Positions 23,557-63,940 of a stretch of 64,000 nucleotides of DNA are shown one piece after another. Every line of letters begins with the position of its first letter. The stretch's first letter is position 1. The stretch is from the NCBI GenBank assembly GCA_017309275.1, contig JAFKLT010000041.1, positions 1 to 64,000 of the forward strand. Direction: 5' to 3'. The DNA comes from Sphingomonadales bacterium. Lineage in GTDB: Bacteria; Pseudomonadota; Alphaproteobacteria; Sphingomonadales; Sphingomonadaceae. The notes under the pieces are model-generated. The model saw only the letters and a list, made by a program, of their open reading frames with translations. It had not been told where the DNA came from and made no database searches. The position numbers were made by a program, and so were the translations under genes.

Positions 23557-23568
23557 CTCCCGCCTTGA

Positions 23569-24603: not shown

Positions 24604-24666
24604 TCAATATTACTCCTATATTTCTGGGTCAAAGAGTCCGGCCTGCCGGTCGGCACCTTTGGGTTG

Positions 24667-25272: not shown

Positions 25273-25316
25273 TAGGTCGTCCTCCGATTTTTCACATAAG
25301 AAGTGTATGTAAATGA

Positions 25317-25370
25317 TTGACATACGTTGCGTATGAGTGGATGATAAATGGCATACGTCACGTATGTCAA
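25317..25370. promoter_or_regulatory. Divergent tetR/efflux promoter with two operators
   Basis: Two 15-bp palindromes, CATACGTTGCGTATG (25321-25335) and CATACGTCACGTATG (25352-25366), lie 31 bases apart on the same helix face. A forward -35 TTGACA at 25317 pairs with a -10 near 25341 (ATGATA). A reverse -35 TTGACA (TGTCAA at 25365) with 17-base spacing pairs with TTATCA over 25342-25347. The two promoters interleave, and each operator overlaps promoter elements, so one repressor can shut both. Confidence 0.8.
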
Positions 25371-25413
25371 ATTTTATCAACCGGGTTTCGCCATCCCTTC
25401 GAGACTGAAAACA

Positions 25414-26616
25414 ATGAGCACATTGCCTTACCTTGCGGTCCTGCCTTCCTGGCGCCGCGCCTTGCCGTTAGCTGCGGCGAGCTTGCTGGCGCTGTCCCTA
25501 GCTGGCTGCAATAGCGACGCCGCCGACGCGGTCGCCGCCCCTCCACCCACGGTCAGCGTGGCACCTGTGTCGGTGCGCAAGATCGTCCTATGGGATGAGT
25601 TCAATGGCCGCGTCGAGGCGGTGGAAAGCGTTGCGCTGCGGCCACGTGTGAGTGGCTACATCGACAGGGTCAATTACGAAGAGGGCCAGATCGTCAAACG
25701 TGGCGACGTGCTGTTCGAGATTGACGCTCGCAGTTACCGTGCTGCTCTGGCTCGCGCGGAAGCAGACTTGGCCCGCGCCCGCACGCAGGCCGCACTGGCA
25801 CGTAGCGAAGCGGCCCGTGCTCAAAAGCTGGCTTCGTTGCAAGCAGCCTCCACCGAGGAGTTGGAGCAGCGCCACGCCGCCGCCGATCAGGCCCAAGCCA
25901 ACGTGCAGTTCGCCCAAGCCGCAGTCGAGACCGCCAAGTTGGATCTGTCGTTCACCCAGGTACGTTCGCCCATCACAGGCCGCGCCGGACGTGCACTGGT
26001 CACGGCAGGCAACTTGGTGAGTGCTGACGGCCAGGCCAGCATCCTGACCACCGTAGTCTCGCTGAACCCGGTGCACGTGCATTTTGATAGCGACGAGCGT
26101 ACCTATCTGCGCTACGCCCACATGGCTCGCAACGGAGAGCGCCCCGACCAGCGCAGCGAAAGTATCCCGGTGCAGGTGGGCCTGGTCGGCGAGAACGGCT
26201 ATCCACACGCCGGAAACGTGGACTTCGTGGACAACCGTGTCGATGCGGCCACCGGCACCATCCGCGCACGCGCCACCCTGGTCAATCCCGACGGACTGCT
26301 TACGCCGGGCCTCTATGCCCGAGTGCGCCTGCCGGGTAGCGGCAGTTTCGAGGCCATGCTGATCGACGACAAGGCCATCCTGACCGACCAGAGCCGCAAG
26401 TACGTGTATGTGATCGATGAGAACAACACCGCCCAGCGCCGCGACATCACGCTGGGACGCAAGGCCGAAGGCCTGCGCATCGTCGAGGAAGGTCTAAATC
26501 CCGGCGACCGCGTGATCGTCAACGGCATCCAGAAGGTTTCTGTCGGCATGCCAGTGACGGCCCAGGACATTGAAATGGCGCCTGCAGGCCGACAAATCGC
26601 CCAGGCGAGCGAATGA
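25414..26616 (+). CDS. RND efflux periplasmic adaptor (MexE/AcrA-like) lipoprotein
   Basis: 400 aa membrane fusion protein. Signal and lipobox LALSLAGC with acylated Cys32; barrel-sandwich hybrid domain around RPRVSGYIDRVNYEEGQIVK and the matching FTQVRSPITGRAGRALV; a long Ala-rich alpha-hairpin with LARARTQAALARSEAARAQ; and a C-terminal TLGRKAEGLRIVEEGLNPGD membrane-proximal domain. It links the inner-membrane pump and the outer-membrane channel encoded next. ATG at 25414 is used; the upstream in-frame ATG lies inside an operator. It is the first gene of the operon. Confidence 0.93.
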   Translation: MSTLPYLAVLPSWRRALPLAAASLLALSLAGCNSDAADAVAAPPPTVSVAPVSVRKIVLWDEFNGRVEAVESVALRPRVSGYIDRVNYEEGQIVKRGDVLFEIDARSYRAALARAEADLARARTQAALARSEAARAQKLASLQAASTEELEQRHAAADQAQANVQFAQAAVETAKLDLSFTQVRSPITGRAGRALVTAGNLVSADGQASILTTVVSLNPVHVHFDSDERTYLRYAHMARNGERPDQRSESIPVQVGLVGENGYPHAGNVDFVDNRVDAATGTIRARATLVNPDGLLTPGLYARVRLPGSGSFEAMLIDDKAILTDQSRKYVYVIDENNTAQRRDITLGRKAEGLRIVEEGLNPGDRVIVNGIQKVSVGMPVTAQDIEMAPAGRQIAQASE

Positions 26617-26635
26617 GCGCGGAGAGCCAGCCATC

Positions 26636-29600
26636 ATGAACTTTGCCCGCTTTTTCGTGGACAGGCCGATTTTTGCGGCCGTGCTGTCCATCATCATTTT
26701 CGTGGTTGGGTTGATCGCGATCCCGCTCTTGCCCGTCAGCGAGTACCCGGAAGTCGTGCCACCCAGCGTACAGGTTCGCGCCACGTATCCTGGCGCAAAT
26801 CCGCGCGAAATCGCCGACACGGTAGCCGCACCACTGGAGGCATCCATCACCGGCGTGGAAAACATGCTCTACATGAAGTCCGTGGCCGGTAGTGATGGCG
26901 TGTTGGTGCTGACCGTCACCTTCCGTCCTGGCACCGATCCCGACGACGCCCAGGTCAAGGTACAGAACCGTGTCGCCCAGGCAGAGCCGCGTCTTCCCGA
27001 AGCGGTGCGCCAGCAAGGTGTGGTGACCGTCAAACAGTCCCACAACGAAACGCTGGTCGTGCAGTTGCGCTCGCCGGGCGATCGCTATGACGCGCTGTAC
27101 CTGCGCAACTATGCCGTGCTCCATGTACGCGACGAGTTGGCACGCATCCAGGGGGTGGGCGATGCCAAGATCTACGGCTCTGGCGACTACGCCATGCGCT
27201 TATGGCTGGACCCCGACAAAATTGCGGCGCTGGGTATGACCGCCGGCGATGTGGTCGAAGCCGTGCGCGAACAGAACGTCCAGGTCTCGGCCGGTCAACT
27301 AGGTGCGCCGCCCAACCCCTCGGGAAGCGACTTCCTCCTGTCCATCAATGCGCAGGGCCGGCTGGTGACGGAAGAAGAGTTCGGCGACGTCATCGTCAAG
27401 ACCGGATCGCAGGGTCAGGTCACCCGGCTGCGAGATGTGGCGCGCGTGGAAATGGACGCATCCAGCTACTCGCTGATGTCGTTGCTCAACAACAAGCCTG
27501 CTGTCGCGATCTCTGTCCTTGAAGCCCCGGGCGCCAATGCCATCGAAATCTCGGATCAAGTCCGCGCGAAGATGGACGAGTTGGCCAAGCGCTTTCCCGA
27601 GGGAGTGGAATGGTCGGTGGAGTATGACTCAACTGTCTTCGTGCGTCAGTCGATCAAGGCGGTCGTCAACACTCTGCTGGAAGCCATCGGACTGGTGGTG
27701 CTGGTGGTGATCTTGTTCCTTCAGACTTGGCGTGCCTCCATCATCCCACTGCTAGCCGTGCCGGTGTCGGTGGTAGGCACCTTCGCCGTGCTGCTGATGC
27801 TGGGCTTTTCCATCAATACGCTCACGCTTTTTGGACTCGTGCTTGCCATCGGGATCGTGGTGGACGACGCGATCGTGGTGGTGGAAAACGTCGAGCGCAA
27901 CATCGCCGAAGGGCTGGCGCCGCTGGCTGCGGCCCATCAGGCCATGCGCGAAGTCAGTGGCCCCATCGTCGCCATCTCGCTGGTGCTGTGCTCGGTATTC
28001 GTGCCTATGGCATTCCTGTCCGGCGTGACAGGGCAGTTCTACAAACAGTTCGCCGTCACCATTGCGATCTCCACGGTAATTTCGGCCATCAACTCGCTGA
28101 CGCTGTCGCCTGCGCTGGCCGCGCGCCTGCTTCGCCCGCATGGTGCCGCGCCAGACCTGCCCACGCGGGTGCTGGATCGCAGTCTGGGCTGGATATTCCG
28201 GCCGTTCAACCGTTTCTTCCTGCGCAGCGCGGATGGCTATGGAAACAGCGTGTCGCGCATCCTCGGGCGGCGTGGTGCGGTGTTTCTCGTCTACATCGCG
28301 CTACTGGTGGCGACGGGAGCTGTGTTCAAGGCCGTCCCTGGCGGATTCATCCCCATGCAGGACAAGCTGTATCTCATCGGTGTCATCCAGCTACCCGAGG
28401 GTGCATCCCTGGAGCGCACGGAAGCGCTGGTCCGCCGTGTGAGCGACATCGCGCTCAAGACCGATGGCGTCTACAACGCCGTGCAGTTCCCGGGCATGAA
28501 CGGCTTGCAGTCGACCAACACGTCCAATAGCGGCCTAGTGTATTTCGTACTCAAGCCCATCAATGAGCGCAAGCACACTGCAACCGAGATTGCGGAACAG
28601 TTGAACGAGCGCTTCGCTCAGGAGCAGGACGGTCTGGCCTTTGCCATCATGCCGCCCCCTGTCATGGGGCTGGGCGCGGGTTCCGGGTTCTCTCTTTACG
28701 TGCAGGATCGCAACCGTGAGGGCTATGCCGCATTGCAGACGGCGACCACCGAGCTGGCGACGGCCATCTCGCAAGAACCGGGATTCCAATATCCGATCAG
28801 TTCCTATCAGGCCAATGTGCCGCAGCTTGACGCCGTAGTGGACCGCACCAAGGCGAAGGCACAGGGCGTGGCCGTGACCGATCTTTTCGATACGCTGCAA
28901 GTGTACCTGGGTTCGGCGTATGTCAACGACTTCACGCGCTTTGGCCGCACCTTCCGGGTGATGGCTCAGGCGGACGCACCGTTCCGCAGTTCTGTCGAGG
29001 ACGTGGTCAAACTGCGCACCCGCAACGCCAATGGCGACATGGTGCCCATCGGCAGCATGGTGGACGTGCGCAAGACATTCGGCCCCGATCCCGTCATCCG
29101 CTTCAACGGCTATCCATCTGCCGACCTGATTGGTGAGTCAGATCCGCGTCTGGTGTCGTCATCGCAGGCATTGCAGCAAGTGCAATCCATTGCAGACAAG
29201 GTGCTGCCGCCAGGCATGCAACTGGAGTGGACCGACCTCAGCTACCAGCAGGTCACGCAAAGCAATACCGCGCTGGTGGTGTTCCCGCTGGCGGTACTGT
29301 TGGTCTTCCTGGTGCTGGCGGCACTGTACGAAAGCTGGACGTTGCCGCTGGCCGTCATCCTGATCGTGCCCATGAGCCTGTTGTCGGCCATGACGGGCGT
29401 GTGGCTCGCGGGTGGTGACAGCAACATTTTCGTGCAGATTGGCTTGATAGTGCTGATTGGTCTGGCCTCCAAGAATGCCATTCTGATCGTGGAGTTCGCC
29501 CGTGAACTTGAGCGCAAGGGGCACAGCATCCTCGATGCCGCGCTGGAGGCATCACGCCTTCGTCTGCGCCCGATCATCATGACTTCCATCGCCTTCATCG

Positions 29601-41971: not shown

Positions 41972-42676
41972 ATGCGATTCAAACGACCGCAGGTGCGCTA
42001 TGCCGATACGCCGCAGCCTGCCACCCCGTATCAAGCCGCTGCCCAGGTGTGGGACGAGCGCATCGGCTCGGCCCGCGTGCAGGCCAAGAACTGGCGATTG
42101 ATGGCCTTCGGCTGCCTGGTGCTCGCGCTGCTGATGGCCGGTGGCCTGGTGTGGCGCTCGGCCCAATCCATCGTCACGCCCTATGTCATCGAAGTCGATC
42201 AGTCCGGCCAGGTGCGCACCGTGGGCGAAGCGGCCACGCCGTACCGGCCCACCGATGCGCAGACGGCACACCATATCGCGCGGTTCGTGACGCTGGTGCG
42301 CTCACTGTCCATCGACCCCATCGTCGTGCGCCAGAACTGGCTCGATGCCTACGACTACACCACCGACCGAGGCGCGGCGGTGCTTAACGACTATGCGCGG
42401 GTGAATGACCCGTTCGCCCGCATCGGCAAAGAGTCGGTAACGGTACAGATCACCAGCGTGGTTCGCGCCAGCGATGCGTCGTTCAACGTGCGCTGGATGG
42501 AACGCCGCTACGTCAATGGCGCGGCGGCCGGGCTGGAGCGATGGACGGCGGTGGTGTCCATCGTGCAGCAGACCCCGCGCACCGAAGAACGCCTGCGCCG
42601 CAACCCGCTGGGCATCTACGTCAATGGCCTGTCGTGGAGCCGTGAACTGGATTCGTCTGAAGGAGTGAAGCCATGA
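41972..42676 (+). CDS. trbF: TrbF, VirB8-like assembly protein
   Basis: 234 aa bitopic protein: short cytoplasmic N-terminus, one membrane helix (about residues 48-66) and a periplasmic NTF2-like domain (RTVGEAATPYRPTDAQTAHH, VNDPFARIGKESVTVQI). AAGGAG precedes the ATG. Coupled to trbG by ATGA overlap. Confidence 0.94.
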   Translation: MRFKRPQVRYADTPQPATPYQAAAQVWDERIGSARVQAKNWRLMAFGCLVLALLMAGGLVWRSAQSIVTPYVIEVDQSGQVRTVGEAATPYRPTDAQTAHHIARFVTLVRSLSIDPIVVRQNWLDAYDYTTDRGAAVLNDYARVNDPFARIGKESVTVQITSVVRASDASFNVRWMERRYVNGAAAGLERWTAVVSIVQQTPRTEERLRRNPLGIYVNGLSWSRELDSSEGVKP

Positions 42677-43665
42677 ATGTGCCTTTCCGTTTTTACGCTT
42701 TGCCGCTTGTCGTGCTGGCCTTGGCCGGCTGCGCCACGCAGGGCAAACCCCCGCCAGTGATTTCCTTGGATGAGCCGGTACAGGCGGAGCCTTTGCCGGA
42801 AATGCCTGTGCCGATCGAGGTGGTCACTATTGCAGAGCCACTGCCATTGCCTGAGCAGTTGAAGCCAGTGCCGGAGGAAAAGGATGCGAAGCCTGCGCCT
42901 GAACCGGCTGATGAGACGGTACGTGTCTCGAAAGCCAATGCCGAGGCACGGGTGGCTCCGACGCGCGAAGGCTATGTCAATGCGATCCAGGTCTGGCCGT
43001 ATAGCGATGGCGCGCTGTACCAGGTCTATGCGTCAGTAGGTCGCGTGACGGTGATCGCGCTCCAGCCTGGCGAGGAACTGGTGACGGTCGCTGCGGGCGA
43101 TACCGTGCGCTGGATCGTCGGTGACACCTCCAGCGGCAGCGGGGCCGATCTGCGCGTCAATGTGCTGGTCAAGCCTATCCGTTCCAGCTTGAAGACCAAT
43201 CTGGTCATTACCACCAGCCGCAGGACGTACCTGCTGGAACTGACTTCGACCGACAAGGCATGGATGGCGTCGGTGTCCTGGGACTACCCGAAAGACCGAA
43301 TGCTGGCCTTGCGGCGCCAAGCCCAAGCCGCCAACGCTGCCGCGCCGGTCGATGCAGGCTTGTCGCTGGATAACATCCGCTTTCGCTATGCAATCAGCGG
43401 CAGCAATCCATCGTGGAAACCGCTGCGCGCTTTTGATGATGGCGAGAAGGTCTATATCCAGTTCCCGGCAGGCATCGCCCAGGGCGAGCTGCCGCCGCTG
43501 TTCGTCATCGGCGCACAGGGCGACGGGCAACTGGTGAACTATCGCTTCCGCTCGCCGTACTACATCGTGGATCGCCTGTTCGGTGCAGCAGAACTGCGCC
43601 TGGGGGCCGACAAGGGCGATATGGTGCGCATCGAGCGCGCGGATGGCATCGTCGGGAGGAACTGA
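42673..43665 (+). CDS. trbG: TrbG, VirB9-like outer-membrane complex protein
   Basis: 330 aa with signal peptide and a possible lipobox VLALAGC (Cys20). A Pro/Glu-rich linker (about 25-85) precedes the VirB9 domain: GYVNAIQVWPYSDGALYQVY, VLVKPIRSSLKTNLVITTSR, and a C-terminal NYRFRSPYYIVDRLFG. It forms the outer ring with TrbI. Confidence 0.94.
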   Translation: MNVPFRFYALPLVVLALAGCATQGKPPPVISLDEPVQAEPLPEMPVPIEVVTIAEPLPLPEQLKPVPEEKDAKPAPEPADETVRVSKANAEARVAPTREGYVNAIQVWPYSDGALYQVYASVGRVTVIALQPGEELVTVAAGDTVRWIVGDTSSGSGADLRVNVLVKPIRSSLKTNLVITTSRRTYLLELTSTDKAWMASVSWDYPKDRMLALRRQAQAANAAAPVDAGLSLDNIRFRYAISGSNPSWKPLRAFDDGEKVYIQFPAGIAQGELPPLFVIGAQGDGQLVNYRFRSPYYIVDRLFGAAELRLGADKGDMVRIERADGIVGRN

Positions 43666-43667
43666 GC

Positions 43668-44945
43668 ATGAGCCAGGACGACACTCCCGACCTTGCCACG
43701 CCGCAGGCGGACAAGATGGCACCCGAGGCGGTGGCGCTGCGCGCCCAACCGCGCCCGGTCACGCGTCTGAACCGACGCACGCTGGCCATCCTCGCTGGCG
43801 GCCTGTCGGTTGGCGTGATGGGCGCGCTGATCTGGTCACTGCAACCGCAGCAACGCGGCGCGGGCGAATCCACCGAACTGTACAACGTGGATCGTGTATC
43901 GCGCTCGGAAGGCCTCGACCAACTTCCTGCCGACTATTCCAAGTTGCCAGCGCTGCCGCCCGACGTGCCGGAGCTGGGGCCACCGCTACCGGGTGATCTG
44001 GGGCCGGCCATCGTCAATTCGCAGCAGCCGGTCGCCGCCACCTATGCCGCGCCCGGCTACGACCCCAACGATGCGCTGCACAAGGAAGCAGAAGCGGCGG
44101 CAGCTTCAACGGTGTTCTTCCGCACCGGCTCCCCGCAGGCCGCGCCCGTGGCGCAGTCGCAAGTCGCTGCCGCGCCGGGCTTCGCCGCCAATGCCGCTTT
44201 CGATCCACTGGCCGCTGGCCCGGCCTCGACGGCGGCCCAGCCTGCTGATCCGACTGCCGTGCAGAACCGGCAAGACCAGAAAGAGGCGTTCCTGACAGGC
44301 GGTTCTACGGAAACCCGTAACTCCGGCAACCTGCAAATGCCCACCTCGCCGTATCAGGTGATGGCCGGAACGGTCATTGCCGGGGCACTGGTCACGGGCA
44401 TCAAGTCCGACTTGCCGGGCGACGTGATCGCCACGGTGACGGAACCGATCTACGACACGGCCACTGGCAAGTTCCTGCTGATCCCGCAGGGATCTCGCAT
44501 ACTGGGCAAGTACAACAGCCAGGTCAGCTACGGCCAGAGCCGCGTGCAGGTGGTGTGGAATCGCATCATCCTGCCCGACACGTCATCACTCACGCTCGAC
44601 AACCTGATCGGCACCGACCCGGCAGGCTATGCCGGTCTGGAGGACAACGTGGACTGGCATTGGGATCGGATCTTTGCAGGTGCCGTGCTGACCACGCTGC
44701 TGGGTGTCGGTGCCGAACTGGCTGCACCTGAGAACCGCCAGGACGGCGATCGCGTCATCATCGCCGGGCGCGACAGCCTGCAGGACACCGTGAACCAGGT
44801 CGGCCAGGAAGTGACCCGGCGCAATCTCAACATCCAACCCACGCTGACCAGCCGCCCCGGCTTGCCGGTGCGCATCATCGTCAACCGCGATCTGGTGCTA
44901 CGGCCTTATCAGCCGCTGTTCTTCAACAAGGGGACTTCTCGATGA
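43668..44945 (+). CDS. trbI: TrbI, VirB10-like channel scaffold
   Basis: 425 aa. One membrane helix at about 38-56 (TLAILAGGLSVGVMGALIW), a long Pro/Ala-rich periplasmic spacer, then the C-terminal VirB10 beta-barrel with antenna (YQVMAGTVIAGALVTGIKSD, FLLIPQGSRILGKYNSQVSY). It spans both membranes as energy sensor/scaffold. Stop overlaps the DUF2274 gene. Confidence 0.95.
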   Translation: MSQDDTPDLATPQADKMAPEAVALRAQPRPVTRLNRRTLAILAGGLSVGVMGALIWSLQPQQRGAGESTELYNVDRVSRSEGLDQLPADYSKLPALPPDVPELGPPLPGDLGPAIVNSQQPVAATYAAPGYDPNDALHKEAEAAAASTVFFRTGSPQAAPVAQSQVAAAPGFAANAAFDPLAAGPASTAAQPADPTAVQNRQDQKEAFLTGGSTETRNSGNLQMPTSPYQVMAGTVIAGALVTGIKSDLPGDVIATVTEPIYDTATGKFLLIPQGSRILGKYNSQVSYGQSRVQVVWNRIILPDTSSLTLDNLIGTDPAGYAGLEDNVDWHWDRIFAGAVLTTLLGVGAELAAPENRQDGDRVIIAGRDSLQDTVNQVGQEVTRRNLNIQPTLTSRPGLPVRIIVNRDLVLRPYQPLFFNKGTSR

Positions 44946-52980: not shown

Positions 52981-53815
52981 TAGGCTCAGGACCCATTGAT
53001 TTGCGTGGGTGATTATGATTCAGGCTGACGCAAGGAGCCTGAATGATGAGCGATCTATACTGGCTGACGGATGAGCAGATGGCTCGGCTTCAGCCTTTCT
53101 TCCCCAAGAGCCATGGCCGCCCTCGCGTGGATGATCGGCGGGTGCTGAGCGGTATCATCTTCGTCAATCGCAACGGGCTCAGGTGGCGGGACGCACCGCG
53201 GGAGTATGGCCCGGCCAAGACGCTTTACAACCGCTGGAAGCGGTGGAGTGACAAAGGTGTCTTCATTGCGATGATGGATGGCCTCTCGGCCAAGGGCACC
53301 GAGCGCAAAACGATCATGATCGACGCCACCTATCTCAAAGCGCACCGCACGGCATCGAGCCTGGGGGTAAAAAGGGGGGTCCGGGCCGCCTGATCGGACG
53401 CACGAAAGGTGGCATGAACACGAAGCTGCATGCCGTCACCGATGCCGATGGCCGTCCGATCAGCTTCTTCATGACGGCGGGTCAGGTGAGCGATTACACC
53501 GGAGCGGCAGCCTTGCTGGACGGCTTGCCCAAAGCACAATGGCTGCTGGGTGATCGGGGCTATGATGCCGACTGGTTCCGCGATGCCTTGCAGGAAAATG
53601 GCATTACCCCCTGCATCCCGGGACGGAAATCCCGCACGAAACCGGTGAAATACGACAAGCGCAGATACAGAAGCCGGAACCGGATCGAGATCATGTTCGG
53701 CCGCCTCAAGGACTGGAGGCGTGTCGCAACACGCTACGACAGGTGCTCAAAAACCTTCCTCTCGGCCGTCGCTCTCGCCGCTACCGTCCTGTTCTGGCTA
53801 TGAGTCCTGAGCCTA
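52981..53815 (+). mobile_element. IS5-family (IS427-type) insertion sequence
   Basis: About 835 bp, bounded by inverted repeats TAGGCTCAGGAC (left, 52981) and GTCCTGAGCCTA (right, ending 53815). It contains one transposase in two overlapping frames. A short 2-3 bp TA-type target duplication is possible but not certain. Confidence 0.85.
53043..53803 (+). CDS. IS5-family transposase (IS427 group, frameshifted orfA/orfB)
   Basis: OrfA (53043-53393) carries the DUF4096-like N-terminus LTDEQMARLQPFFPKSHGRPRVDDRRVLSGI and the first catalytic Asp in MIDATYLKAHRTAS. OrfB continues in the -1 frame after the A5G6 run (53369-53379) and contains LGDRGYDADWFRDAL (second Asp) and SRNRIEIMFGRLKDWRRVATRYD (Glu). 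The A/G run is the usual programmed frameshift site in this group, so the element appears functional. Confidence 0.9.
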
Positions 53816-54806: not shown

Positions 54807-55814
54807 ATGTCCCACGACCTCATGTTCGTGGCACCCGAGCAGCGCGACGAGGTGCGTCGCAGGATCGCAGCCGTGGAACAATTCATTGCCGCGCCCGGGC
54901 GCAGGGCCGCCGAGGCGGCCGCTGCGAGACTAGGCCTCAGCACGGCCCAGTTCTACAACCTCGTCCGCGCTTGGCGGGCGAAGCAAAGACCGGAAATAAT
55001 GATGGGTCGCCATTCGCCGCGCGAGATGCAATCCCGGATCGACCCATTAGTGCTCGATCTCATTGACGAGGTGATCAGCGCGGATCGCCGAGCTGCCGCC
55101 AGCGTCCTTGTCGAGCGAGTCCGTTCGTTGGCGGCGATCCGCGGTATTGAACTTCCGGACCCGAGCACTGTGGCGCGCTCCGTTCGACGCAAACGGCCGA
55201 TGCTACTGACCGAAGAGCATAGGCGGGATGTCGATCTCATCATCGACCATACCGTCGTTGATCTGCCTGTCGACTTCGGTGATGGTCAAGCCCGACGCCC
55301 TCTCGTGACTGTCGTCATCGACGTCGCCTCCGAGGCTCCCGTCGCGTTGTCTATCTCCCGCTCGGTGCCGAGCCAGGCGGCCACCGCCGAAGCAATATTC
55401 GATGCGCTCCGCGGCGGCATCCGACACGCCAACGGTAGGGCAGCGAAGAGACGCATGAGCATCGTGGCGATGTCGGAGAAAGAGGGTGCCAATGTGGTCG
55501 CCACCCTGCGGCAGGCGGGTATCGATGCGGGCCTCATAATGACGGGCGCCCACGGTGGCGGGCTGGTCGTGGAATCGCTACTCGGACCGGAACCTGTCGG
55601 ACTGCGGCTTAAGCAACGGCTCGTATGGCATCACGGCGAAAAGAGGTTGGCTGCAGTGCGTTCAGGTGCCCCGCCGCTGACAATCGCCGAAGCCGAGACG
55701 CTCATCAGGGGACGCCTACTTCACGGTCGTCCCACCACGGCGTTCAGCTCTTTAAGCAACCGCGACCAGGCATATCTGGCCAGGAGCTTGGCGAAGATCG
55801 CTCAAGCCGACTGA
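54807..55814 (+). CDS. Degenerate TniA/TnsB-like DDE protein (A)
   Basis: 335 aa. N-terminal helical DNA-binding-like region with AQFYNLVRAWR (about 47-57), a linker, then an RNase H-like core as in TniA/TnsB: LIIDHTVVDLPV (first Asp147) and RPLVTVVIDVASEAPVALSI (strands 2-3). The strand that should carry the second catalytic Asp reads SIVAMSEKEG (218-227), with Ser/Glu instead of the DNG motif. GAHGGGLVVESLLG matches the Glu helix (Glu256). It is shorter than TniA (~560 aa) and lacks the C-terminal beta-barrel and tail. Probably not catalytic. ATG has AAGGGG upstream. It is convergent with protein B (13-base overlap). Confidence 0.7.
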   Translation: MSHDLMFVAPEQRDEVRRRIAAVEQFIAAPGRRAAEAAAARLGLSTAQFYNLVRAWRAKQRPEIMMGRHSPREMQSRIDPLVLDLIDEVISADRRAAASVLVERVRSLAAIRGIELPDPSTVARSVRRKRPMLLTEEHRRDVDLIIDHTVVDLPVDFGDGQARRPLVTVVIDVASEAPVALSISRSVPSQAATAEAIFDALRGGIRHANGRAAKRRMSIVAMSEKEGANVVATLRQAGIDAGLIMTGAHGGGLVVESLLGPEPVGLRLKQRLVWHHGEKRLAAVRSGAPPLTIAEAETLIRGRLLHGRPTTAFSSLSNRDQAYLARSLAKIAQAD

Positions 55815-56956
55815 AGCGCGACCAGCGAGGCACGGATCACGGCGGCTAGACGTCCGTCGGTTACGCCACCACCAATGATGTTGGCTCGGGTCAGAGCGAC
55901 AATGCGATCGACGTTGTGACGTTCAACCTCCCGCATCCAGATTCCACGTGCTTCTTCTAGCGCCACAATGGGGGCAACTCGACTCTTGAGGTATTCGTCG
56001 ATGTCCATATCTGCCAGCAAGGTGCGCCGGGAATTCAACGGTATCCTGCCAATCCGCGGACCAGTCACCTGCTGGACTTGCTGACCAAAGGAAAACCCGC
56101 CAGCCCGGCCCATCACCAGTTCGCTGACATGCGGCTCCAGCGTCTGGATCAACGACTCAGCGTGTATGTCCGGTGGCAACATCCAGCCCAAACTCGGCAT
56201 CGTATCGGGCTGGGGCGGCAGATCGGCCCTGTTAAGCTGAAGAAACGAAAGGCCGGCGGATAAGGCTTCGCGCTGGAGCGCACGGCCGTTATCTTTTCTG
56301 CCGAGCGCCGAGCCTAGAACGAGGCCACTAGCTGTTTCCATCAAGATGGCCGCTACCGCGAGGGCACGCTCTGTTCCGTCGAGAACAATCTGGACAGCGG
56401 TAAGGTCCAAGACCATTTCGCCACCAAATGCAGCGCGGACAAATTTGGGATCCCCAGTAAGCCGCCGACGTTCATCGCCGACTAGCCGCTGAAGGCGCTG
56501 GAGGACGGTGAGTGCGTGGTTGGCACCCGCGTCGGTCCGGACGAGATCCGGGTTCGCCTCCATGATACGCCTCGCCACATCAACGTTACGCGAGAGCGGG
56601 TTCGAGCGTAACAGGGTCTCGGCTTCTTTCCGAAGCGGACTCTCATCGCTGGCATCTACGCGCCTGCCGCTACGAGTGTCGTGCGGGACCAGACCGGCGA
56701 GCGAGTGGGTGCGCCACGCAACGCGCAAGTTGTAGAAGGCTGCGCGCTTAAGGCGAGCCAGATCGGCGAGCGGCCCGAGTGGCTCGCCCCGTTCTGCGCG
56801 CCAGACGGCTTCGAGCCGATCCAGAAGATTCTTGCGATTCGAAGCAGGAACGGCGTCCAGCACCACCCGATCCCGTTCAGAGATACCATCGGGCCACACC
56901 AAGGCGATCAGTTGCTGCTGTCGCCGCTCGATATCATCCTGAGCCTCTAAATCCAT
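55802..56956 (-). CDS. Degenerate TniA/TnsB-like DDE protein (B)
   Basis: 384 aa, distantly related to protein A. It has the same AAFYNLRVAWR motif (about 72-82) after an N-terminal acidic/Gln-rich segment. The core starts MVLDLTAVQIVLDGTERAL (Asp184 in place) and AAILMETASGLVLGSALG, but the second Asp strand (LGWMLPPDIHAES) is unconvincing, and the Glu position reads GGFSFGQQ without Glu. Catalysis is therefore very unlikely; a structural, DNA-binding or regulatory role is inferred. ATG at 56956 lacks a clear ribosome binding site. It is divergent from the small-ORF/TnsA unit, sharing a 130-base promoter region. Confidence 0.65.
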   Translation of the reverse strand: MDLEAQDDIERRQQQLIALVWPDGISERDRVVLDAVPASNRKNLLDRLEAVWRAERGEPLGPLADLARLKRAAFYNLRVAWRTHSLAGLVPHDTRSGRRVDASDESPLRKEAETLLRSNPLSRNVDVARRIMEANPDLVRTDAGANHALTVLQRLQRLVGDERRRLTGDPKFVRAAFGGEMVLDLTAVQIVLDGTERALAVAAILMETASGLVLGSALGRKDNGRALQREALSAGLSFLQLNRADLPPQPDTMPSLGWMLPPDIHAESLIQTLEPHVSELVMGRAGGFSFGQQVQQVTGPRIGRIPLNSRRTLLADMDIDEYLKSRVAPIVALEEARGIWMREVERHNVDRIVALTRANIIGGGVTDGRLAAVIRASLVALQSA

Positions 56957-57086
56957 GCGGTTTGGTTAACCATGCAACTGATTAATGTCTAGTGGTATAT
57001 GCCTGCTTGACGAAAGATCCCGCACCACCTACTTATCCGATGTCTAGTGCAGTTCGCCTAGAAATGATTCGGATTGGAGGTGGCGG
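56957..57086. promoter_or_regulatory. Divergent intergenic region with ATGTCTAGTG repeats
   Basis: Separates degenerate DDE gene B from the tns-side genes. The 10-mer ATGTCTAGTG occurs at 56985-56994 and 57040-57049 (55-base spacing, about five turns). Both could be binding sites for a regulator or for one of the DDE-like proteins. GGAGGTGG at 57076 is the ribosome binding site for the next ORF. Confidence 0.5.
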
Positions 57087-57248
57087 ATGCCAAAAGATCA
57101 CAGCGAAGCAACAGGTGCAGACGAGACCTTCGAGCGGCCGCCAATACTGCCGCTGCCTACCGAGGCCGCCGCGCGCCTCTCGACGTGGCGTCGGCGCAAG
57201 TCTCAACGGCAGCGTCGGCCGGTGCCTATCTCGGGATTGTCCCGATGA
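57087..57248 (+). CDS. Small ORF 1 upstream of tnsA
   Basis: 53 aa, basic C-terminus (TWRRRKSQRQRR), no recognised domain. Supported by a strong GGAGGTGGCGG-ATG start and by an ATGA overlap with the next ORF. It could be a leader peptide or small DNA-binding protein of the Tn7-like unit. Confidence 0.4.
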   Translation: MPKDHSEATGADETFERPPILPLPTEAAARLSTWRRRKSQRQRRPVPISGLSR

Positions 57249-57451
57249 CGATCTTTGGCGGACAGGCGAGCCCCACCGCTTGGCGCATCGTCGTCGTAAC
57301 ATTGCGCGGCGACGGATTGCGGTCCGGCACCGTCGACGCGGTGAATCCGTCGACAGGGAATAAAGCGTCACTCCTGTTCGAGGGGCACGACGACCTGTCG
57401 GTTGACGGTCGCGAATATTGCCGCGCGGTGATGCAGGGCCAAAACCGATGA
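57245..57451 (+). CDS. Small ORF 2 upstream of tnsA
   Basis: 68 aa, beta-rich (AWRIVVVTLRGDGLRSGTVDAV), no recognised domain. Its start overlaps ORF 1 (ATGA) and its stop overlaps an ATG at 57448 that is in frame with tnsA, so the three frames form a coupled chain. Moderately supported. Confidence 0.4.
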   Translation: MTIFGGQASPTAWRIVVVTLRGDGLRSGTVDAVNPSTGNKASLLFEGHDDLSVDGREYCRAVMQGQNR

Positions 57452-57711
57452 CCCGCGTCAAAGCTCTGAGCAGGACGATCGAATGCGGTCTGATGGGCGA
57501 AGATCCGTCGTCGCCCGCCTGCACTGCCCAAGCAGTGAACTCGGGTGATCCCGTTCCCAAGTGGATTCTGCCCCATCCACACAGTCTCATTCCCCGAAGG
57601 CCACCGCGGTGGGTGAGCCGCGCCCCCCGTCGTGACGCGCCGCACGCGCTCCGTTCGAGAAGTGAAGGCTGGCGTAGTCCTCGCCTACGCACTGATCCTG
57701 CCGGTGGGCCC

Positions 57712-58374
57712 ATGCGCATCAACATGACCTATAGAAATTCGTGCACGACTTCGGCCGACTTCTGCCCGACGATCGGCCACGACGTTTTCACGGAAGGCGC
57801 TTTCGAGGGGATCTATCGGGCGATCCTAACCACAGACGAAGATACCTGCGAGTTTCAGTTTCAGGTCGCGACCATCACCTGGACCACCAAGGACGGGCAG
57901 GACCGCCACTACACCTTTGACGGCGGGCGGATCACTGTGGATGGCGTCGAGCGGTGGTTCGAGATCAAGGCTCACGCCAGCTACTTCAAACTGCCCGACG
58001 TGGCCGACGTGCTGGACCAAGCGGAACGCGCACTTGCCGCACACGACATCGCTTTGGACCGAATAGATGGATCGGCGTTGCTCGATCACGTGCGGCTCCG
58101 CGCGGTAAACGGCGTTCTGCGCCATCGGAATGTTCCCTACAGCCGCCGCGATGTGGCTGCTGCGCACGATGCGATTCACCGCGCTGGTGGCGTCGCTCCG
58201 CACGGCGCTGTCGCCGCTGCCATCGGGAGGGGACAGCGCAACGCCGAGGCGATGATGTCGGCAATGCTGATCCGCCGCGAGATTGGCTTTCCGGTCAACG
58301 GCCCCGTGACGGTCGACACGCCAGTCACTCTCTTGCGCCGACCCAACCGACGCCTTTCCCGCTTCGGCACCTAG
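57712..58374 (+). CDS. tnsA: TnsA-like endonuclease of Tn7-like transposon
   Basis: 220 aa. The restriction-endonuclease-like core is visible: Glu in EGAFEGIYRAIL (E29/E32), Asp70 in HYTFDGGRI and the E-x-K pair in RWFEIKAHAS (E84, K86), matching TnsA's E-D-ExK site. The middle and C-terminus (residues 95-220) are helical as in the TnsA C-terminal domain that binds TnsC. I start at ATG 57712; the frame is open to ATG 57448, where the added 88 residues look unstructured. The stop is two bases before the tnsB GTG, so they are coupled. It cleaves the 5' strand at transposon ends, giving cut-and-paste movement. Confidence 0.72.
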   Translation: MRINMTYRNSCTTSADFCPTIGHDVFTEGAFEGIYRAILTTDEDTCEFQFQVATITWTTKDGQDRHYTFDGGRITVDGVERWFEIKAHASYFKLPDVADVLDQAERALAAHDIALDRIDGSALLDHVRLRAVNGVLRHRNVPYSRRDVAAAHDAIHRAGGVAPHGAVAAAIGRGQRNAEAMMSAMLIRREIGFPVNGPVTVDTPVTLLRRPNRRLSRFGT

Positions 58375-58376
58375 TC

Positions 58377-60611
58377 GTGTCTCTCCCGTGCACCATCGCC
58401 ATCGGCGACATCATCCACCTCGGCGAGCGCCGGATCCGTTTCGAGGCGGATTTGGGAGACGGGGATTTGCATTTCACCGACGTGCGCACCGGCGCGCGCG
58501 TCCGCGTCGAGGATCCTGACACTGGCGATCCGTCCAGCACGACCATCGAGTGGCTATTGAGATCTTTGAAAGCAGGGCAGATTTATTATCAACGCGCTAG
58601 CGAGCCCCGGCCCGATGATCGTCGCGGAGACCTGACGCAAGTGGACGAGGACGCCGCCGACACAATCGATCCACTTACGTCTTGGCGCAGAACATGGGTG
58701 CGAGAGGCACGCGCGAATAAGGTGAAGTGCGAGGCGGCCTGCAAGGCTTTCATCGCTCATAGTTACGAGCGAATCTCTAGCGAATACCGCGAGCGGAAGG
58801 GACGGACATACAAACGTCCGGGAGCCAGCACGCTCAAACGGTGGATCATCAGAACCCCACAAGATTTCGCGCCGGGCGCCCACGTATCAAAGGCTGGTCG
58901 CCAGAAGGGGCAGTCTCAACTGACAAACGCAGAAGATGCTCTTGTCCACGAAGCCGCGCTCTACTTCTGGGCGGACAAAGGCGCGTCGATCGTCGACGCC
59001 GAGGCTGTCATGGCGCGAGGATGGAACTCATTGAAACTTAAGGGCGATATTGACCTTGGAGAGAAGAGACCTTCCTATGAGGCGGTCCGCCTCCGCGTCT
59101 GGAGCATTGCCACCTTCGCGACCGTCTTTGAAAAGTTCGGACGAGAGCGGGCCGAAAAGATGTTTGGAGCGGTCGGCGAACCGATCGAAGTTCATCGCGC
59201 ATTCCAGCGGATATTCGTCGACGGAACCGAACTCGAGCAGGTGTGCCTCTTCGGTGAAGACTGGCAGCTGCCTGGAGGCAAGATGAAGTGCGTAGGCGCG
59301 ATGGACGCCTTCTCGACCTTTGTCTTCGATCCGACAATTTTTGCCGGTCCCTACCGCGAGGAGATGTCGATCGAGGCGCTGTGCCGAGTAATGACGCCAC
59401 CGGATCATCTCACGGAGGAACAACTGGCGTTTCATCCATACGTTGGATGGACGTTCGGAATTCCCGAAGCATGGACGCCTGACAATGATCGGACGCTGAT
59501 AGGACCCGCCTATATTCCCGCGCTGCTGGACTTGGGTTCGCGGTTAGAGCTGCCCGCAACTTACCATTCGGACGCAAAAGCACCTCTGGAGTGGTGGTTC
59601 GGGTGGCTAAAGTCACGCCTCAAGGGATTGCCCGGCACCGTTCTTTCGCCACGCCACAGCCGCGATATCAAGCAGGATCCGGTCAATGGCGCGGAAATGG
59701 TATCGAGCCAGCTTGTCTACGCCGTCCGGGCCTTAACCTGGGAATACAACACCACTCCCGTGGAGCGGCTCAACTGGCGTTCGCCGTTCGACGTGCTGAT
59801 CGCCAGTATGATCGCCAACGGTTCTGCAACCCTAAGCAACCCCCAGCGTATCCGGGCCGAAATGGAGAAAACGGTCAACGACCGCGTCCTAGCCGACGAT
59901 GGACTTGAATACGACGGAATCCAGTATCGCGGGCCCGAGGTGGAGGACATCCTTCGTCGGAACTACCACGCCGTTGCATCTTCTCGTGACGGTCATGAAC
60001 CCGTCCGACTAAAGGTGTCGATCCGAACCAATGAGGCAAACATCGATTACATCCGTGTTTGGCACGACGACGCGAGGCAGTTCGTGAAACTGTGGTCCAC
60101 GCAACCGACCTACACAAATCTGCTTAGCCGATGGGAGCACGACGAATATCGCCGGATGGCCAAGGCGCGTAAGGAAAGATTCGATTCGGAGGGACAGCGA
60201 GTGCGGTCTCGGACTCGCAGTCTTGAGCAGATCGACGAACAAGCGCCGAAGATGGCGTTCCGTCGGCGTTCAAAGATGTTTACACTTTCGCAGTGCGAGG
60301 AGGTCCGCCAGCGCTCGGGCGCGCGCGCGCGCCGCCCTGGATTTCTAACATTTCCAGAGCATTTTGTCATTGTCGAGACGTCCACCGTTATGCGCGGCGA
60401 TCCCGGAAAGCCGCCGCCCGGTCCGAAGAAGGAAACTGGCGGAGGCCCGCCCGGCAAGCAGTTCGCAGCCCCCAAGCGTGACGGCCGTCGCGGCATCTCG
60501 CCGGAGCGGCGGCACCCAGAAGACGACATGCAAGACGCCGCAAGCAACAGCATTGACTGGGATGCGCTGAGCCACGTGGCACCCGACGACGAATATGACG
60601 AAGAGGACTGA
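58377..60611 (+). CDS. tnsB: TnsB-like DDE transposase
   Basis: 744 aa Mu/TnsB-type transposase. HTH-bearing N-terminal region, rve core with Asp282 in RIFVDGTELEQ, Asp369 in AWTPDNDRTLIG and Glu405 in APLEWWFGWLKSRLKG (the PLEWWF motif), then beta-barrel domain (SSQLVYAVRALTWEYNTTPVERL) and a long charged tail with a Pro/Gly-rich C-terminus likely to contact TnsC. GTG at 58377 is the only start after the tnsA stop. It contacts ends and joins 3' strands to the target. Together with TnsA it forms the Tn7-like heteromeric transposase. Confidence 0.85.
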   Translation: MSLPCTIAIGDIIHLGERRIRFEADLGDGDLHFTDVRTGARVRVEDPDTGDPSSTTIEWLLRSLKAGQIYYQRASEPRPDDRRGDLTQVDEDAADTIDPLTSWRRTWVREARANKVKCEAACKAFIAHSYERISSEYRERKGRTYKRPGASTLKRWIIRTPQDFAPGAHVSKAGRQKGQSQLTNAEDALVHEAALYFWADKGASIVDAEAVMARGWNSLKLKGDIDLGEKRPSYEAVRLRVWSIATFATVFEKFGRERAEKMFGAVGEPIEVHRAFQRIFVDGTELEQVCLFGEDWQLPGGKMKCVGAMDAFSTFVFDPTIFAGPYREEMSIEALCRVMTPPDHLTEEQLAFHPYVGWTFGIPEAWTPDNDRTLIGPAYIPALLDLGSRLELPATYHSDAKAPLEWWFGWLKSRLKGLPGTVLSPRHSRDIKQDPVNGAEMVSSQLVYAVRALTWEYNTTPVERLNWRSPFDVLIASMIANGSATLSNPQRIRAEMEKTVNDRVLADDGLEYDGIQYRGPEVEDILRRNYHAVASSRDGHEPVRLKVSIRTNEANIDYIRVWHDDARQFVKLWSTQPTYTNLLSRWEHDEYRRMAKARKERFDSEGQRVRSRTRSLEQIDEQAPKMAFRRRSKMFTLSQCEEVRQRSGARARRPGFLTFPEHFVIVETSTVMRGDPGKPPPGPKKETGGGPPGKQFAAPKRDGRRGISPERRHPEDDMQDAASNSIDWDALSHVAPDDEYDEED

Positions 60612-60613
60612 GT

Positions 60614-61600
60614 ATGGCCAAAGATCCACTCGGAAAGCGGCCCCGCCCGCTCACTGGCAGACGCTTCGCCGACTATGCCGATCAGGAAACACAGTTACGA
60701 GAGGCGAAGATGCGAAAAGTTGTGAAGAATATATGGGTCGAGCACCCGCCGCAGGCAAACGTGATCGGCCGTATCCTCGCATACCGCTTCGCCACCCTTG
60801 AGGGTGCGGAAATTGGCGGGCAAGACGGACTATGCTTCAGCCAGGACAGTCAGATCGGCAAAACGGCCACTGTCACGCGCGTGAAGCACATTCTCGCCGA
60901 GGAACGCGCCGCGAGGGGTGAGTTGCCGAATCCTTATCAGATCATCGTCGTGGGCCTCGATCAGAAGACGTCACTCAAGAGTGTTCTGCAGGACGTCCTG
61001 ATACAGATGGAGGACCCAGATTGGGATTATGGCACCGAGAAGCAGCTCAGGCAACGGATCCGTAAGTTCGTCAAACGTCTCGGCGTTGAACTGATAATTA
61101 TCGACGAATGCCAGCACTTACAGAAGGGCGGGAATGACGTTGCCGACGTGACGGACGCCTTTAAACGCTTCCTCGACATGGGCATCGCACCGTTGGTGTT
61201 AGTGGGAAACCTCGATGCTAAGCGAGTGTTCGATCGCAATCCGCAATTCCGCGCCCGTCTTGGGCTCCCGCTGACACTGCCCGCGCTCGATGTTAAGAAG
61301 CGCACCGCGGACGCCGTGCACTTCCGCAACTTCGTCATGGGTTTCGATGCGGCACTCGCGCAATTGGAGGCCTTCGGTAAAACCTCAGATCTTTCCGCCC
61401 CCGCCATGCTCGACGCCTTGCAGGAGGCATCGGGCGGATATTTTGGCCGCGTGGCACGGATAATCCAAAACGCGGCGATTCATGCAGCGGCCAGGGGAGC
61501 GCAGTTCATCGAGGCCTACGACCTCAGCTGTGTTGTTCGCGACTACGCCATCCCCGCAGGTTGGGTCGGCGACGATCCTTTTTCGACGCCTAATGTCTGA
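60614..61600 (+). CDS. tnsC: TnsC/TniB-like AAA+ regulator
   Basis: 328 aa AAA+ ATPase. Walker A region FSQDSQIGKTATV (about 75-87; first Gly of the loop replaced), Walker B LIIIDECQHLQKG (about 160-172), sensor-1 APLVLVGNLDAKRVFDRN. The length equals TniB/short TnsC. It connects the target selector (TniQ) to TnsA/TnsB. It starts two bases after the tnsB stop, and GAGGA serves as ribosome binding site. Confidence 0.87.
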   Translation: MAKDPLGKRPRPLTGRRFADYADQETQLREAKMRKVVKNIWVEHPPQANVIGRILAYRFATLEGAEIGGQDGLCFSQDSQIGKTATVTRVKHILAEERAARGELPNPYQIIVVGLDQKTSLKSVLQDVLIQMEDPDWDYGTEKQLRQRIRKFVKRLGVELIIIDECQHLQKGGNDVADVTDAFKRFLDMGIAPLVLVGNLDAKRVFDRNPQFRARLGLPLTLPALDVKKRTADAVHFRNFVMGFDAALAQLEAFGKTSDLSAPAMLDALQEASGGYFGRVARIIQNAAIHAAARGAQFIEAYDLSCVVRDYAIPAGWVGDDPFSTPNV

Positions 61601-63737
61601 TCATCTCGTTAGGAAACCCGACAGCAGCCTGGTGTCTTCCACGACGGACGTAGCGTTTGATTGTGGATCGGGCTTTGACACCAAGAAGCGTGGGCCGAGG
61701 GGCGTGCGCAACCGCAATGCTTTGCCACCTGGGCGGCGAATCCTTCGCCGCAACGTAAAGCGTCCGCACCTACACGCGTCGGGATGGAGCGTCCCCGAAC
61801 GCAAGATGAAGATCGGCCAACCGCTTCGCTTTCCGACGATTCCGGAAGAATACGAAAGCCTAATCGGGCTCGTGGCGCGGGCTACTGCAGACCATGTGCT
61901 GCTCGACCTGAACAGGGTGCTTCGTCGGGCAGGCATAAGCATGGACCGGCCCGGATACCTTACTCGACTCGATTCAGCCACGTTGGAACGCCTCGCTCCC
62001 ATCATCGGCTGCCCGGTCGAAGAGGTATTGTCTCGAACGATGTGGACCATGTTGCCTCATGCGAAAGCCAGGCGCGCTAGGCTGCGGGCCAACCACCTCA
62101 GCGTGTGGGACATAGAGACCGAGCACCGCAGGATTTCTCCGCTCGCGATTCTCGCTGGCTCCCGCCACCGCGAGTCATGGCTTCTCCGGATACTGCCATA
62201 TTGCTCTGTCAGTTTCGAACTCCTTCGATCGGACTGCTCAGAATGCAGTGCGCCTTTGCGATGGAAGAAGTCCGTTGGGATAGATGTCTGCGAGACATGC
62301 GAACAGGTGGTCGGACCCACCGACGCCGCGTTGCTAGACGAGGAAATGAGGTCAGATTATGCGCTGTTCGCACGCCTCATTTCTGGTCGAGTCGAAGTGC
62401 GCAAGAAGGCTTTTAGCGAACTGAGCCCTGCCGTCCAAGACTTGGATGTTGAAACCCTGATCCGAATGGTCATAGGCATAGGGGCCTGCTTCCACTTAAA
62501 GGACCGCTTCGTAAATCGAAAGTCGATCCACAGACTTCCGCCCGCCCAGCAGGCTGCCATTATATCGACCGGCACCGAAATTCTGAGGGAATGGCCCGGC
62601 GCGCTGCAGCTCCGGTCACAAGAGGAGGCCACCCGGCTAATTGCGGGTGGCAGCGATTACCGAAAGCTGCGGGCCAGATTGCAAAAGCTGGGCCATCGGT
62701 GGTTCGTAAGCCAAAAACAAGCAGACCTCATACGTGACGCGCTCCCCGACATATTTTGCAACGTGCAACGCAGCTTCAAGCCTCTTTCGGACACGCTTCT
62801 GCGCCGTGAAGCGGGCAAACTCCTTGGCTTGGCCGTCAGGCATGTCGATTTGGTTGATGCCGGGCTTCTTGCGGCGGAGGAACTGGGAGGAGGCGCAAAT
62901 CGAAGGTTTCGTTTCGATCGTTCGGTCGTGGAGGCGCTACGCAGGCGTATAGACGGATCAATTTCAATGGCCCTGTTTGCGCGGCAGACCTATCTTCCGA
63001 CCTACGCGATCGAGAATCTTTGTGACCATGGGATACTCGAGCGCGAAAGTGACCCAGCACTGTTTCACCTTCGCCATGGCTCCAGCATCACCCGGACGTC
63101 CATCGAGTCGCTTCGCGCGGCGATATTCGAATTGGAACGCGGCACAGCCCCGAGCGATGCCGTCCCGCTCGGGACCGCCACGCGGCGGATTGGAGGCCGC
63201 TTAAAGCCATGGGCCGATATCGTAGTCGCATTGCGAGACCGGTCGCTTACGTGCTGGATAGCTCCCAACGCGACTTCGGAGACACCCTGGCTACGCAGCA
63301 TCCTGATTGCGCCTCCCCAATTCGCTCAGTTCGACAATATCGCGATGACCGAGCCACCCGGACAAAGCCCACGATCGCTCGCCGACTGTTCGTTGTCCGA
63401 TGCAAAGGAAATTCTCAACCTTCGAGGCACACCATCAGTTGATCTTCAGGACGTCTTCGCAAAAGAAATCGCGGCATGCGATCAACGGGGCCCGCGCAAG
63501 GCAGTTCCGATGGCGAAGGTCCTCGAGAAGGCTGAACAAGAAATCGGCATCGGCGAGATCTGTGCACGTGCTAATTGGAACGCGCGTCAGGCAAAATGGG
63601 CGCTGGCACTCTTCGCGAATGATCGCACGGCATGCGGGTGGAACCGCGCCGCAATCGAGAAATCGGGGGTTTTGGAGACGCAAATTAACTGGAGCGTCAG
63701 AGCGCATCGCCGCGATCCAAGGACGTTGGGGTCGTGA
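61593..63737 (+). CDS. tniQ: TniQ/TnsD-like target-selection protein
   Basis: 714 aa. TniQ domain at the start of the conserved part: PTIPEEYESLIGLVARATADH, LWDIETEHRRISPLAIL-like region, then a four-Cys zinc site CSECSAPLRW...CETCEQV (about 215-235). The long helical C-terminus (to 714) resembles TnsD rather than the short TniQ of CAST systems, so it may bind a specific attachment site. ATG 61593 overlaps the tnsC stop by eight bases; a later ATG (about 61806) is possible and would remove a Lys/Arg-rich leader. Last gene of the tnsABC-tniQ operon. Confidence 0.85.
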   Translation: MSDHLVRKPDSSLVSSTTDVAFDCGSGFDTKKRGPRGVRNRNALPPGRRILRRNVKRPHLHASGWSVPERKMKIGQPLRFPTIPEEYESLIGLVARATADHVLLDLNRVLRRAGISMDRPGYLTRLDSATLERLAPIIGCPVEEVLSRTMWTMLPHAKARRARLRANHLSVWDIETEHRRISPLAILAGSRHRESWLLRILPYCSVSFELLRSDCSECSAPLRWKKSVGIDVCETCEQVVGPTDAALLDEEMRSDYALFARLISGRVEVRKKAFSELSPAVQDLDVETLIRMVIGIGACFHLKDRFVNRKSIHRLPPAQQAAIISTGTEILREWPGALQLRSQEEATRLIAGGSDYRKLRARLQKLGHRWFVSQKQADLIRDALPDIFCNVQRSFKPLSDTLLRREAGKLLGLAVRHVDLVDAGLLAAEELGGGANRRFRFDRSVVEALRRRIDGSISMALFARQTYLPTYAIENLCDHGILERESDPALFHLRHGSSITRTSIESLRAAIFELERGTAPSDAVPLGTATRRIGGRLKPWADIVVALRDRSLTCWIAPNATSETPWLRSILIAPPQFAQFDNIAMTEPPGQSPRSLADCSLSDAKEILNLRGTPSVDLQDVFAKEIAACDQRGPRKAVPMAKVLEKAEQEIGIGEICARANWNARQAKWALALFANDRTACGWNRAAIEKSGVLETQINWSVRAHRRDPRTLGS

Positions 63738-63791
63738 TAGCTTGTAACCGGTCGTATTAGGTCAAATTAGCTTGTAGCCTGTCAGCTTGTT
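63738..63791 (+). repeat. Direct repeats after tniQ, putative transposase-binding sites
   Basis: TAGCTTGTAACCGGTC (63738-63753) and TAGCTTGTAGCCTGTC (63768-63783) match at 14 of 16 bases and are exactly 30 bases apart (about three turns); a partial AGCTTGTT follows at 63784. Tandem, phased repeats next to tniQ are what a TnsB-bound right end would look like. Confidence 0.6.
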
Positions 63792-63940
63792 CTACCCAAG
63801 GAACGTGGGTCGTTTCAAGATTGGGCGAAGGGGCCGGATGAACATGACGGGTCGCCCACTTTGGCTTCGCTCGGGGAAAGACCTATAAGGCCGTGCGCGT
63901 CGTCACAGACGCGGCGGCCGGAATGCTGTGAGGGGACCAC

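Follow-up and report, generated by a model that had tools for sequence, protein, structure and literature searches.

Accessory proteins set where and when Tn7-like transposons move, and the study of TnsD, TnsE, TnsF and CRISPR effectors has in each case uncovered a mode of control. Truncated-transposase inhibitors and phage immunity regions likewise consist of element-encoded, DNA-binding proteins that control the element. TnsF is an inactive tyrosine recombinase which serves as target selector of Tn6022 (Faure et al. 2023, PMC10293859), and CvkR is a MerR-type repressor of a type V-K CRISPR-associated transposon (CAST; PMC9938897). Faure et al. looked for further selectors among genes in operon with tniQ or tnsD (PMC10293859). 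A search limited to tniQ-operon genes can overlook accessory modules on the far side of the core. The locus described here lies in the first 64,000 of the 90,085 bases of contig JAFKLT010000041.1 of a Sphingomonadales bacterium (this whole stretch is called the window below), where a Tn7-like transposon carries, next to tnsA, two genes termed A and B. We conclude that A and B are a new accessory module of Tn7-like transposons in a sphingomonad group: two conserved proteins, built on the transposase fold itself, that are swapped as a unit between cores.

Gene A (54807-55814, + strand) encodes a catalytically dead TniA/TnsB-like protein of 335 amino acids, and gene B (55802-56956, - strand) its 384-residue paralogue, convergent with A and overlapping it at the 3' ends. 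The motif FYNL-x2-AWR, described in an earlier note made from the letters of this DNA, is indeed present in both proteins, and the residues listed there were found again: of the catalytic triad, A has the first Asp and the Glu but no second Asp, and in B the first Asp, D184, is the sole catalytic residue kept. Pfam gave only weak helix-turn-helix (HTH) matches under the cut-off for A and B, NCBIfam a weak IS481 match for A, and PHROGs a transposase family for A (1.1e-10) and nothing useful for B. The AlphaFold2 models, with a mean predicted local distance difference test score of 87.8 for A and 91.4 for B, feature N-terminal HTH regions (two in A) and a confident RNase H-like core, with the Mu C-terminal region absent; in fold comparison the predicted cores came nearest to TnsB and MuA, in line with the fold pattern that had been proposed. 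Loss of the triad is general in the group. Among 30 A and 29 B proteins, aligned with eight active TniA proteins (L104-L111; L and G numbers denote loci and genomes) after dropping the near-duplicates L010 and L080, the over-long B frame of L084, and L083, the first Asp is present in 13 A and 28 B, the second in no A and one B, and the Glu in two A and no B. The full triad thus occurs in 0/59 aligned A and B proteins versus 8/8 active TniA proteins, and because it is missing, A and B are not filed as transposases.

The company kept by the two genes was followed across genomes. A profile of A matched 53 of 397 genomes of the family, of which 19, counting that of the window, have A and B next to tns genes, and 11 further ones have either one dead A/B-like gene (L101-L103) or an active TniA (L104-L111); the remaining 23 were weak matches and were left out of the locus set, three of them (G150, G164 and G217) being reached later via TnsB. 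On iteration the profile drifted into the active TniA proteins, which were then used as active outgroup. A profile of B matched 21 of 296 genomes of the order, all in the same family, 18 with pairs and three weak ones that were left out. The resulting set of 33 loci also takes in three loci from two genomes of the genus, two plasmid loci and L010, the near-identical copy in G069. In the plasmid collection, named relatives of A came from Novosphingobium and Sphingomonas, in keeping with Sphingomonadaceae as the family of the window. A query of protein A against genome contigs gave no relative, and the separate genome search did find relatives. Beyond the family, a class sample of 385 genomes gave two matches, both in the window's family, and a phylum sample of 398 genomes gave ten, six of them outside the family; the five of these six that were read all have an intact-looking triad by eye.

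A/B pairs adjoin tns genes in all 33 fetched loci: A, B, TnsA and TnsB are present in each, and TnsC and TniQ in 32, both being absent from L088 at a contig start. The arrangement A(+) B(-) tnsA(+) noted in the window is kept in 32/33 loci, whose A and B proteins are mostly 16-38% identical to those of the window. This constant company, together with the predicted RNase H-like core, supports the earlier proposal of an undescribed accessory pair. In the reciprocal direction, a profile of TnsB matched 28 of 199 family genomes, with 13 strong places (E < 1e-160), and A and B are present at nine of these; the pair is therefore a usual, not universal, companion of these TnsBs. L083 (10180-12775) is the sole locus of the 33 with A and B on one strand, both facing away from tnsA, and in L077 (5668-9879) a second A and a B fragment precede the intact pair, as though two cassettes had been placed side by side.

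Identity matrices over 28 loci (L010, L014, L088, L091 and L083 dropped, and only the best piece used where tnsB is split in two frames) indicate that A and B evolve together and apart from the core. The correlation is 0.86 for A with B and 0.86-0.92 among TnsA, TnsB, TnsC and TniQ, and 0.30-0.37 between A or B and the core proteins. Leaving out the near-duplicate L081 (27 loci) lowers these to 0.76, 0.81-0.89 and 0.06-0.16, respectively; by permutation, p is 0.0002 for the correlation of A with B and 0.01-0.16 for those across the groups. The same separation is evident in single pairs of elements. L096 and L097, in the same genome (G573), are 78, 71, 62 and 64% identical in TnsA, TnsB, TnsC and TniQ, but 26 and 25% in A and B; conversely, L078 and L080 are 75 and 81% identical in A and B, whereas their cores share only 17-24%. 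In G069, the other genome with two intact cassettes, the A and B proteins are unlike too (27-29%). DNA identity shifts at or near the tnsA start in L078/L081, L096/L097 and L098/L099, and more gradually in L092/L081, so that, as read from the sequences, the exchange point in the compared pairs is the B/tnsA junction. That A and B form a paired, co-varying module of dead, TniA-derived proteins, located beside tnsA and exchanged independently of the transposase core, is well supported. The two-frame state of tnsB, with overlapping or adjoining frames, was seen in L080, L081, L092 and L093.

Another reading takes the pair as cargo, either for host benefit or as a defence against other mobile elements, that came to lie next to the core by chance; in L078/L081 A and B were exchanged along with upstream DNA, and cargo sits on the A side. 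However, place and strands are fixed in all but one of the 33 loci over highly diverged elements, and the pair is kept in L012, an element without other recognised genes, so that we consider cargo quite unlikely.

In a tree of 70 proteins, for which active TniA proteins were chosen as outgroup, the B group has a support of 0.99 and the A group of 0.17, and branching within the two groups is alike by eye. Tree and fold support a derivation of A and B from a TniA-type DDE transposase (named for its Asp, Asp, Glu triad) whose active site and C-terminal part were lost and whose gene was duplicated. Three single dead A/B-like proteins lie divergent from tnsB in other Tn7-like cores (L101:1671-2909, L102:996-2660 and L103:12337-13686). 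The second Asp and the Glu are gone in all three, and they fall beside A and B in the tree (support for the exact place 0.02); possibly they represent the state before duplication.

Such an origin also raises the question of whether A and B are just decaying remnants of a nested TniA-type element, as their TniA homology and the loss of triad and C-terminus might suggest. The ratio of non-synonymous to synonymous substitution rates (dN/dS) is, for A and B, 0.12 and 0.08 in L078/L081 and 0.20 and 0.15 in L012/L091, where TnsB has 0.09; these are rough values, dS being above 1. For A it is 0.15 between the window and G069 and 0.30 in L080/L081, a pair with one change in B. Where measurable, A and B thus appear, from sequence comparison, to be under purifying selection. 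Since the layout is conserved, at 16-38% identity, and dN/dS is low in diverged pairs, with full-length frames and confident predicted folds besides, decay is largely refuted and barely conceivable as an explanation.

The core genes follow on the + strand. Open reading frame (ORF) calls confirmed A, B and tnsA-tnsB-tnsC-tniQ at the positions first reported: tnsA at about 57712-58374 (start codon uncertain), tnsB, encoding the DDE transposase, at about 58377-60611 (GTG start, uncertain), tnsC, encoding an AAA+ ATPase, at 60614-61600, and tniQ at 61806-63737, encoding a protein of 643 amino acids, a long, TnsD-like size. TnsC matches TniB and AAA_22 in Pfam, and the match of TnsB to Mu-transpos_C falls under the Pfam cut-off; the tnsA and tniQ products gave no convincing Pfam match, and these two names rest on position and on profiles built from relatives. 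The statement that all four proteins have intact active sites holds for TnsB, whose D270, D357 and E393 are invariant, the full D, D, E being kept in 22/22 aligned TnsBs. In TnsA the acidic and ExK residues were judged by eye only, and to TniQ, which is no enzyme, the statement does not apply. Beyond tniQ lie two repeats on the + strand, AGCTTGTAACCGGTC (63739-63753) and AGCTTGTAGCCTGTC (63769-63783), each a probable TnsB site of the right end, and then the element right end (63784-63831), placed by comparison with G069 so that its exact base is an estimate, and beyond it the sequence reads as the end of ligA. The element, first delimited as 54807-63737, does contain the six genes within that range and yet exceeds it, with its right end near 63831 and its left arm continuing leftwards; its left end was not found on the contig.

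The window and G069 elements, 99% identical, have a common right neighbour, an FA_hydroxylase-family gene, present in 46/60 genomes of the genus, which in other genomes of that genus follows ligA. The empty-site reading covered 14 of 30 loci; nine loci were oppositely oriented and lacked that side, and L126 offered intergenic DNA only. The junction between ligA and the flanking gene was read in four (L118, L119, L121 and L125), the ligase domains of L121 being confirmed by Pfam. From the ligA stop codon the G069 element extends over about 40 kb. GCGGG stands on either side of it, and its excision on paper leaves a ligA end as in L121; from these sequences we infer that the right junction of the window is likewise the end of ligA. 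At the left end of the G069 element, an inverted sequence matches the right-end repeats of the window with two mismatches. The termini of Tn7 are TGT...ACA. Those of the G069 element are CCCTCGG and CCTTCGCC, and for this reason the element is called Tn7-like and not Tn7, while other named Tn7 features are present: tnsA, tnsB, tnsC and tniQ occur together (TnsA and TniQ as named by the profiles of relatives), and insertion is at a fixed site beside a conserved gene, the ligA stop in G069 (and in the window by its right junction) and rnhA in L012 and L091.

L012, the second G069 element, measures 8,844 bp and lies directly after rnhA, with both ends found (22/25 matches between the inverted ends versus 15-18 in 15 shuffles); no clean 5-bp target duplication like the GCGGG flanking the ligA element of G069 was seen at L012. 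It holds the same six genes as the window and no recognised cargo, the other listed ORFs of at least 150 amino acids overlapping these on the opposite strand. An automatic end search in the DNA upstream of A, run in 18-base windows over 29 loci against three shuffles of each, left most loci at shuffle level; a few exceed the shuffles by one to three bases (17/18 in L010 and L099, 16/18 in L085 and L100 among others), and the match between the window and L010 falls within a coding gene. The rnhA element was the one case in which both ends were found, first by eye and afterwards with a script.

Insertion sites bear on the main rival explanation, namely that the Tn7-like core has recruited the pair as a target selector, which would bind target DNA and hand it to TniQ and TnsC; TnsF in Tn6022 is the precedent (PMC10293859). 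Modular exchange would be expected of a selector, and sites do vary: besides ligA and rnhA (the latter also in L091, from another genus), a scan of right flanks in 29 loci gave tRNA-Thr(CGT) in three and tRNA-Gly in one, and other right neighbours are genes with Mfd (TRCF), mannitol dehydrogenase, amino acid kinase (ProB-like) and HisF-type domains. Yet the 643-residue TniQ has a size that Faure et al. link with direct target choice (PMC10293859). L078 and L080/L081, with A and B 75-81% alike, have three different right neighbours, and at the constant rnhA target of L012 and L091 A and B have drifted to 60% and 53% identity, faster than TnsB with 84%. Target selection by A and B is thus rather unlikely. 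L080 and L081, 98% identical, differ in right neighbour even though their TniQs are 97% alike, an exception to fixed-site insertion, and neither TniQ nor A/B alone predicts the site. tRNA-Thr(CGT) lies just past the right end of L074, L092 and L097, whose TniQs are 21-31% alike; this site may have been chosen more than once.

According to another explanation, A and B would be structural subunits of the transpososome that bind the ends and replace some TnsB protomers at one end. Their TnsB-like predicted fold with HTH regions, and the retention of the pair in an element without recognised cargo (L012), would fit such a role. Against it, co-variation with core proteins is almost nil (r 0.06-0.37), and like cores with unlike A and B keep like right ends by eye (L080/L092 and L096/L097). 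Left ends were mostly not found, and a role there is conceivable. On the whole this explanation is improbable.

Co-variation and fold suggest that A and B are probably a heterodimeric DNA-binding pair derived from a dead TniA-type transposase, and we tentatively propose that its job may be control of transposition or exclusion of sister elements. The two proteins would act as a heterodimer, as halves of one exchangeable module, and would bind DNA through their N-terminal HTH regions at sites specific to the element. One candidate place is the gap separating the divergent genes B and tnsA (56957-57711 in the window), a proposed control region at whose tnsA end the exchange point lies, at or near the tnsA start, in compared elements. 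Once bound, the pair might restrain the transposase genes or the transpososome, and might exclude sister elements in the manner of an exchangeable phage immunity region; the insertion site would probably be chosen by the long TniQ. Control is preferred over target selection because TniQ is long, A and B drift at the constant rnhA target and like A and B occur at different sites, and over a structural role because A and B hardly co-vary with TnsB. Among the roles listed in the earlier note, an end-binding cofactor is thus disfavoured, the pair being exchanged independently of TnsB, and target selection moderately so, whereas control, antagonism or exclusion would fit best.

Several observations weigh against this proposal. 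A test for operator words, taken as exact matches of 10, 12 or 14 bases linking the right end, the B/tnsA gap and the DNA upstream of A, was negative in 29 loci: such words are about equally common between and within loci, with some within-locus values slightly higher at 10 and 12 bases, while at 14 bases none was found. Only two genomes, G069 and G573, have two intact cassettes. It is because of the negative operator-word test and of this small number that control is held tentatively. Between the window and G069, B has two synonymous and five non-synonymous changes (dN/dS 0.88 on seven changes), too few to show constraint. Finally, a verifiable pair is absent at four of the 13 strong TnsB places: L177 lies at a contig edge, L180 contains a scrambled A remnant, L178 has a gene like those of insertion sequence (IS) elements beside a short tnsA, without A and B, and L179 is the fourth. 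In L179 (3809-7157), a close relative of TnsB lacks A and B, and a serine recombinase and two ParB-like genes (one Pfam-confirmed) stand in the place of the pair. A more specific version, in which the dead-transposase heterodimer is a heteroimmunity system that assigns elements to exclusion groups by its exchangeable DNA specificity, such that related transposons share a genome only if their cassettes differ, is doubtful on present evidence.

Further features were noted in and around these elements. Small separate ORFs of 173-257 amino acids match the N-terminal part of TnsB (L009:16211-16732, L095:11771-12400, L100:4455-5228 and L083:9054-9722), near the B/tnsA gap and on the tnsB strand in L009, L095 and L100; a further accessory or inhibitor is possible. 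In the window, an insertion at 52984-53808 with IS4/5-type transposase frames (53043-53393 and 53414-53803) is absent from the otherwise near-identical G069 element. Conjugation-like genes (VirB9/VirB10-type, by eye) at 42673-44945 adjoin, on its left, the stretch that the window has in common with G069; the two genomes therefore differ in the element's left arm or in what neighbours it. On the Sphingomonas plasmid of L009, genes annotated as TIR-domain, S8 peptidase and caspase-family lie beyond tniQ (23279-27897) and have the look of a defence cluster.

To our knowledge, a heteroimmunity cassette, if that is what A and B are, would be the first known for bacterial transposons. The element is filed as Tn7-like and the A/B pair as an accessory module not yet described: the earlier statement that no described Tn7-like family has such a pair agrees with the open-licence literature, in which none was found, and the portion of Benler et al. 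(PMC8649781) consulted makes no mention of one. Like TnsF (Faure et al., PMC10293859), A and B are a dead recombination enzyme serving as accessory to a Tn7-like core. Unlike TnsF, a single protein of tyrosine-recombinase type in operon with tniQ, they are two convergent paralogues of DDE/RNase H type at the opposite end of the core, without co-variation with TniQ; their models are RNase H-like, hence predicted not to have a tyrosine-recombinase-type fold. With TniA of Tn5053/Tn402-type elements they are homologous by profile and tree (active relatives L104-L111) and have HTH regions and an RNase H-like core in common, but they lack the triad and C-terminal region, are paired and lie beside a separate, active TnsB. 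TnsB of Tn7 and of V-K CASTs, as well as MuA, share the predicted core fold, from which A and B again differ in having neither triad nor Mu C-terminal region. Truncated-transposase inhibitors, phage immunity regions and CvkR (PMC9938897) are element-encoded means of control, as is proposed for A and B; the pair differs from all of these in being two diverged, co-varying dead transposases, and it opens a direct experimental way into the self-regulation of transposons and their discrimination between sister elements.

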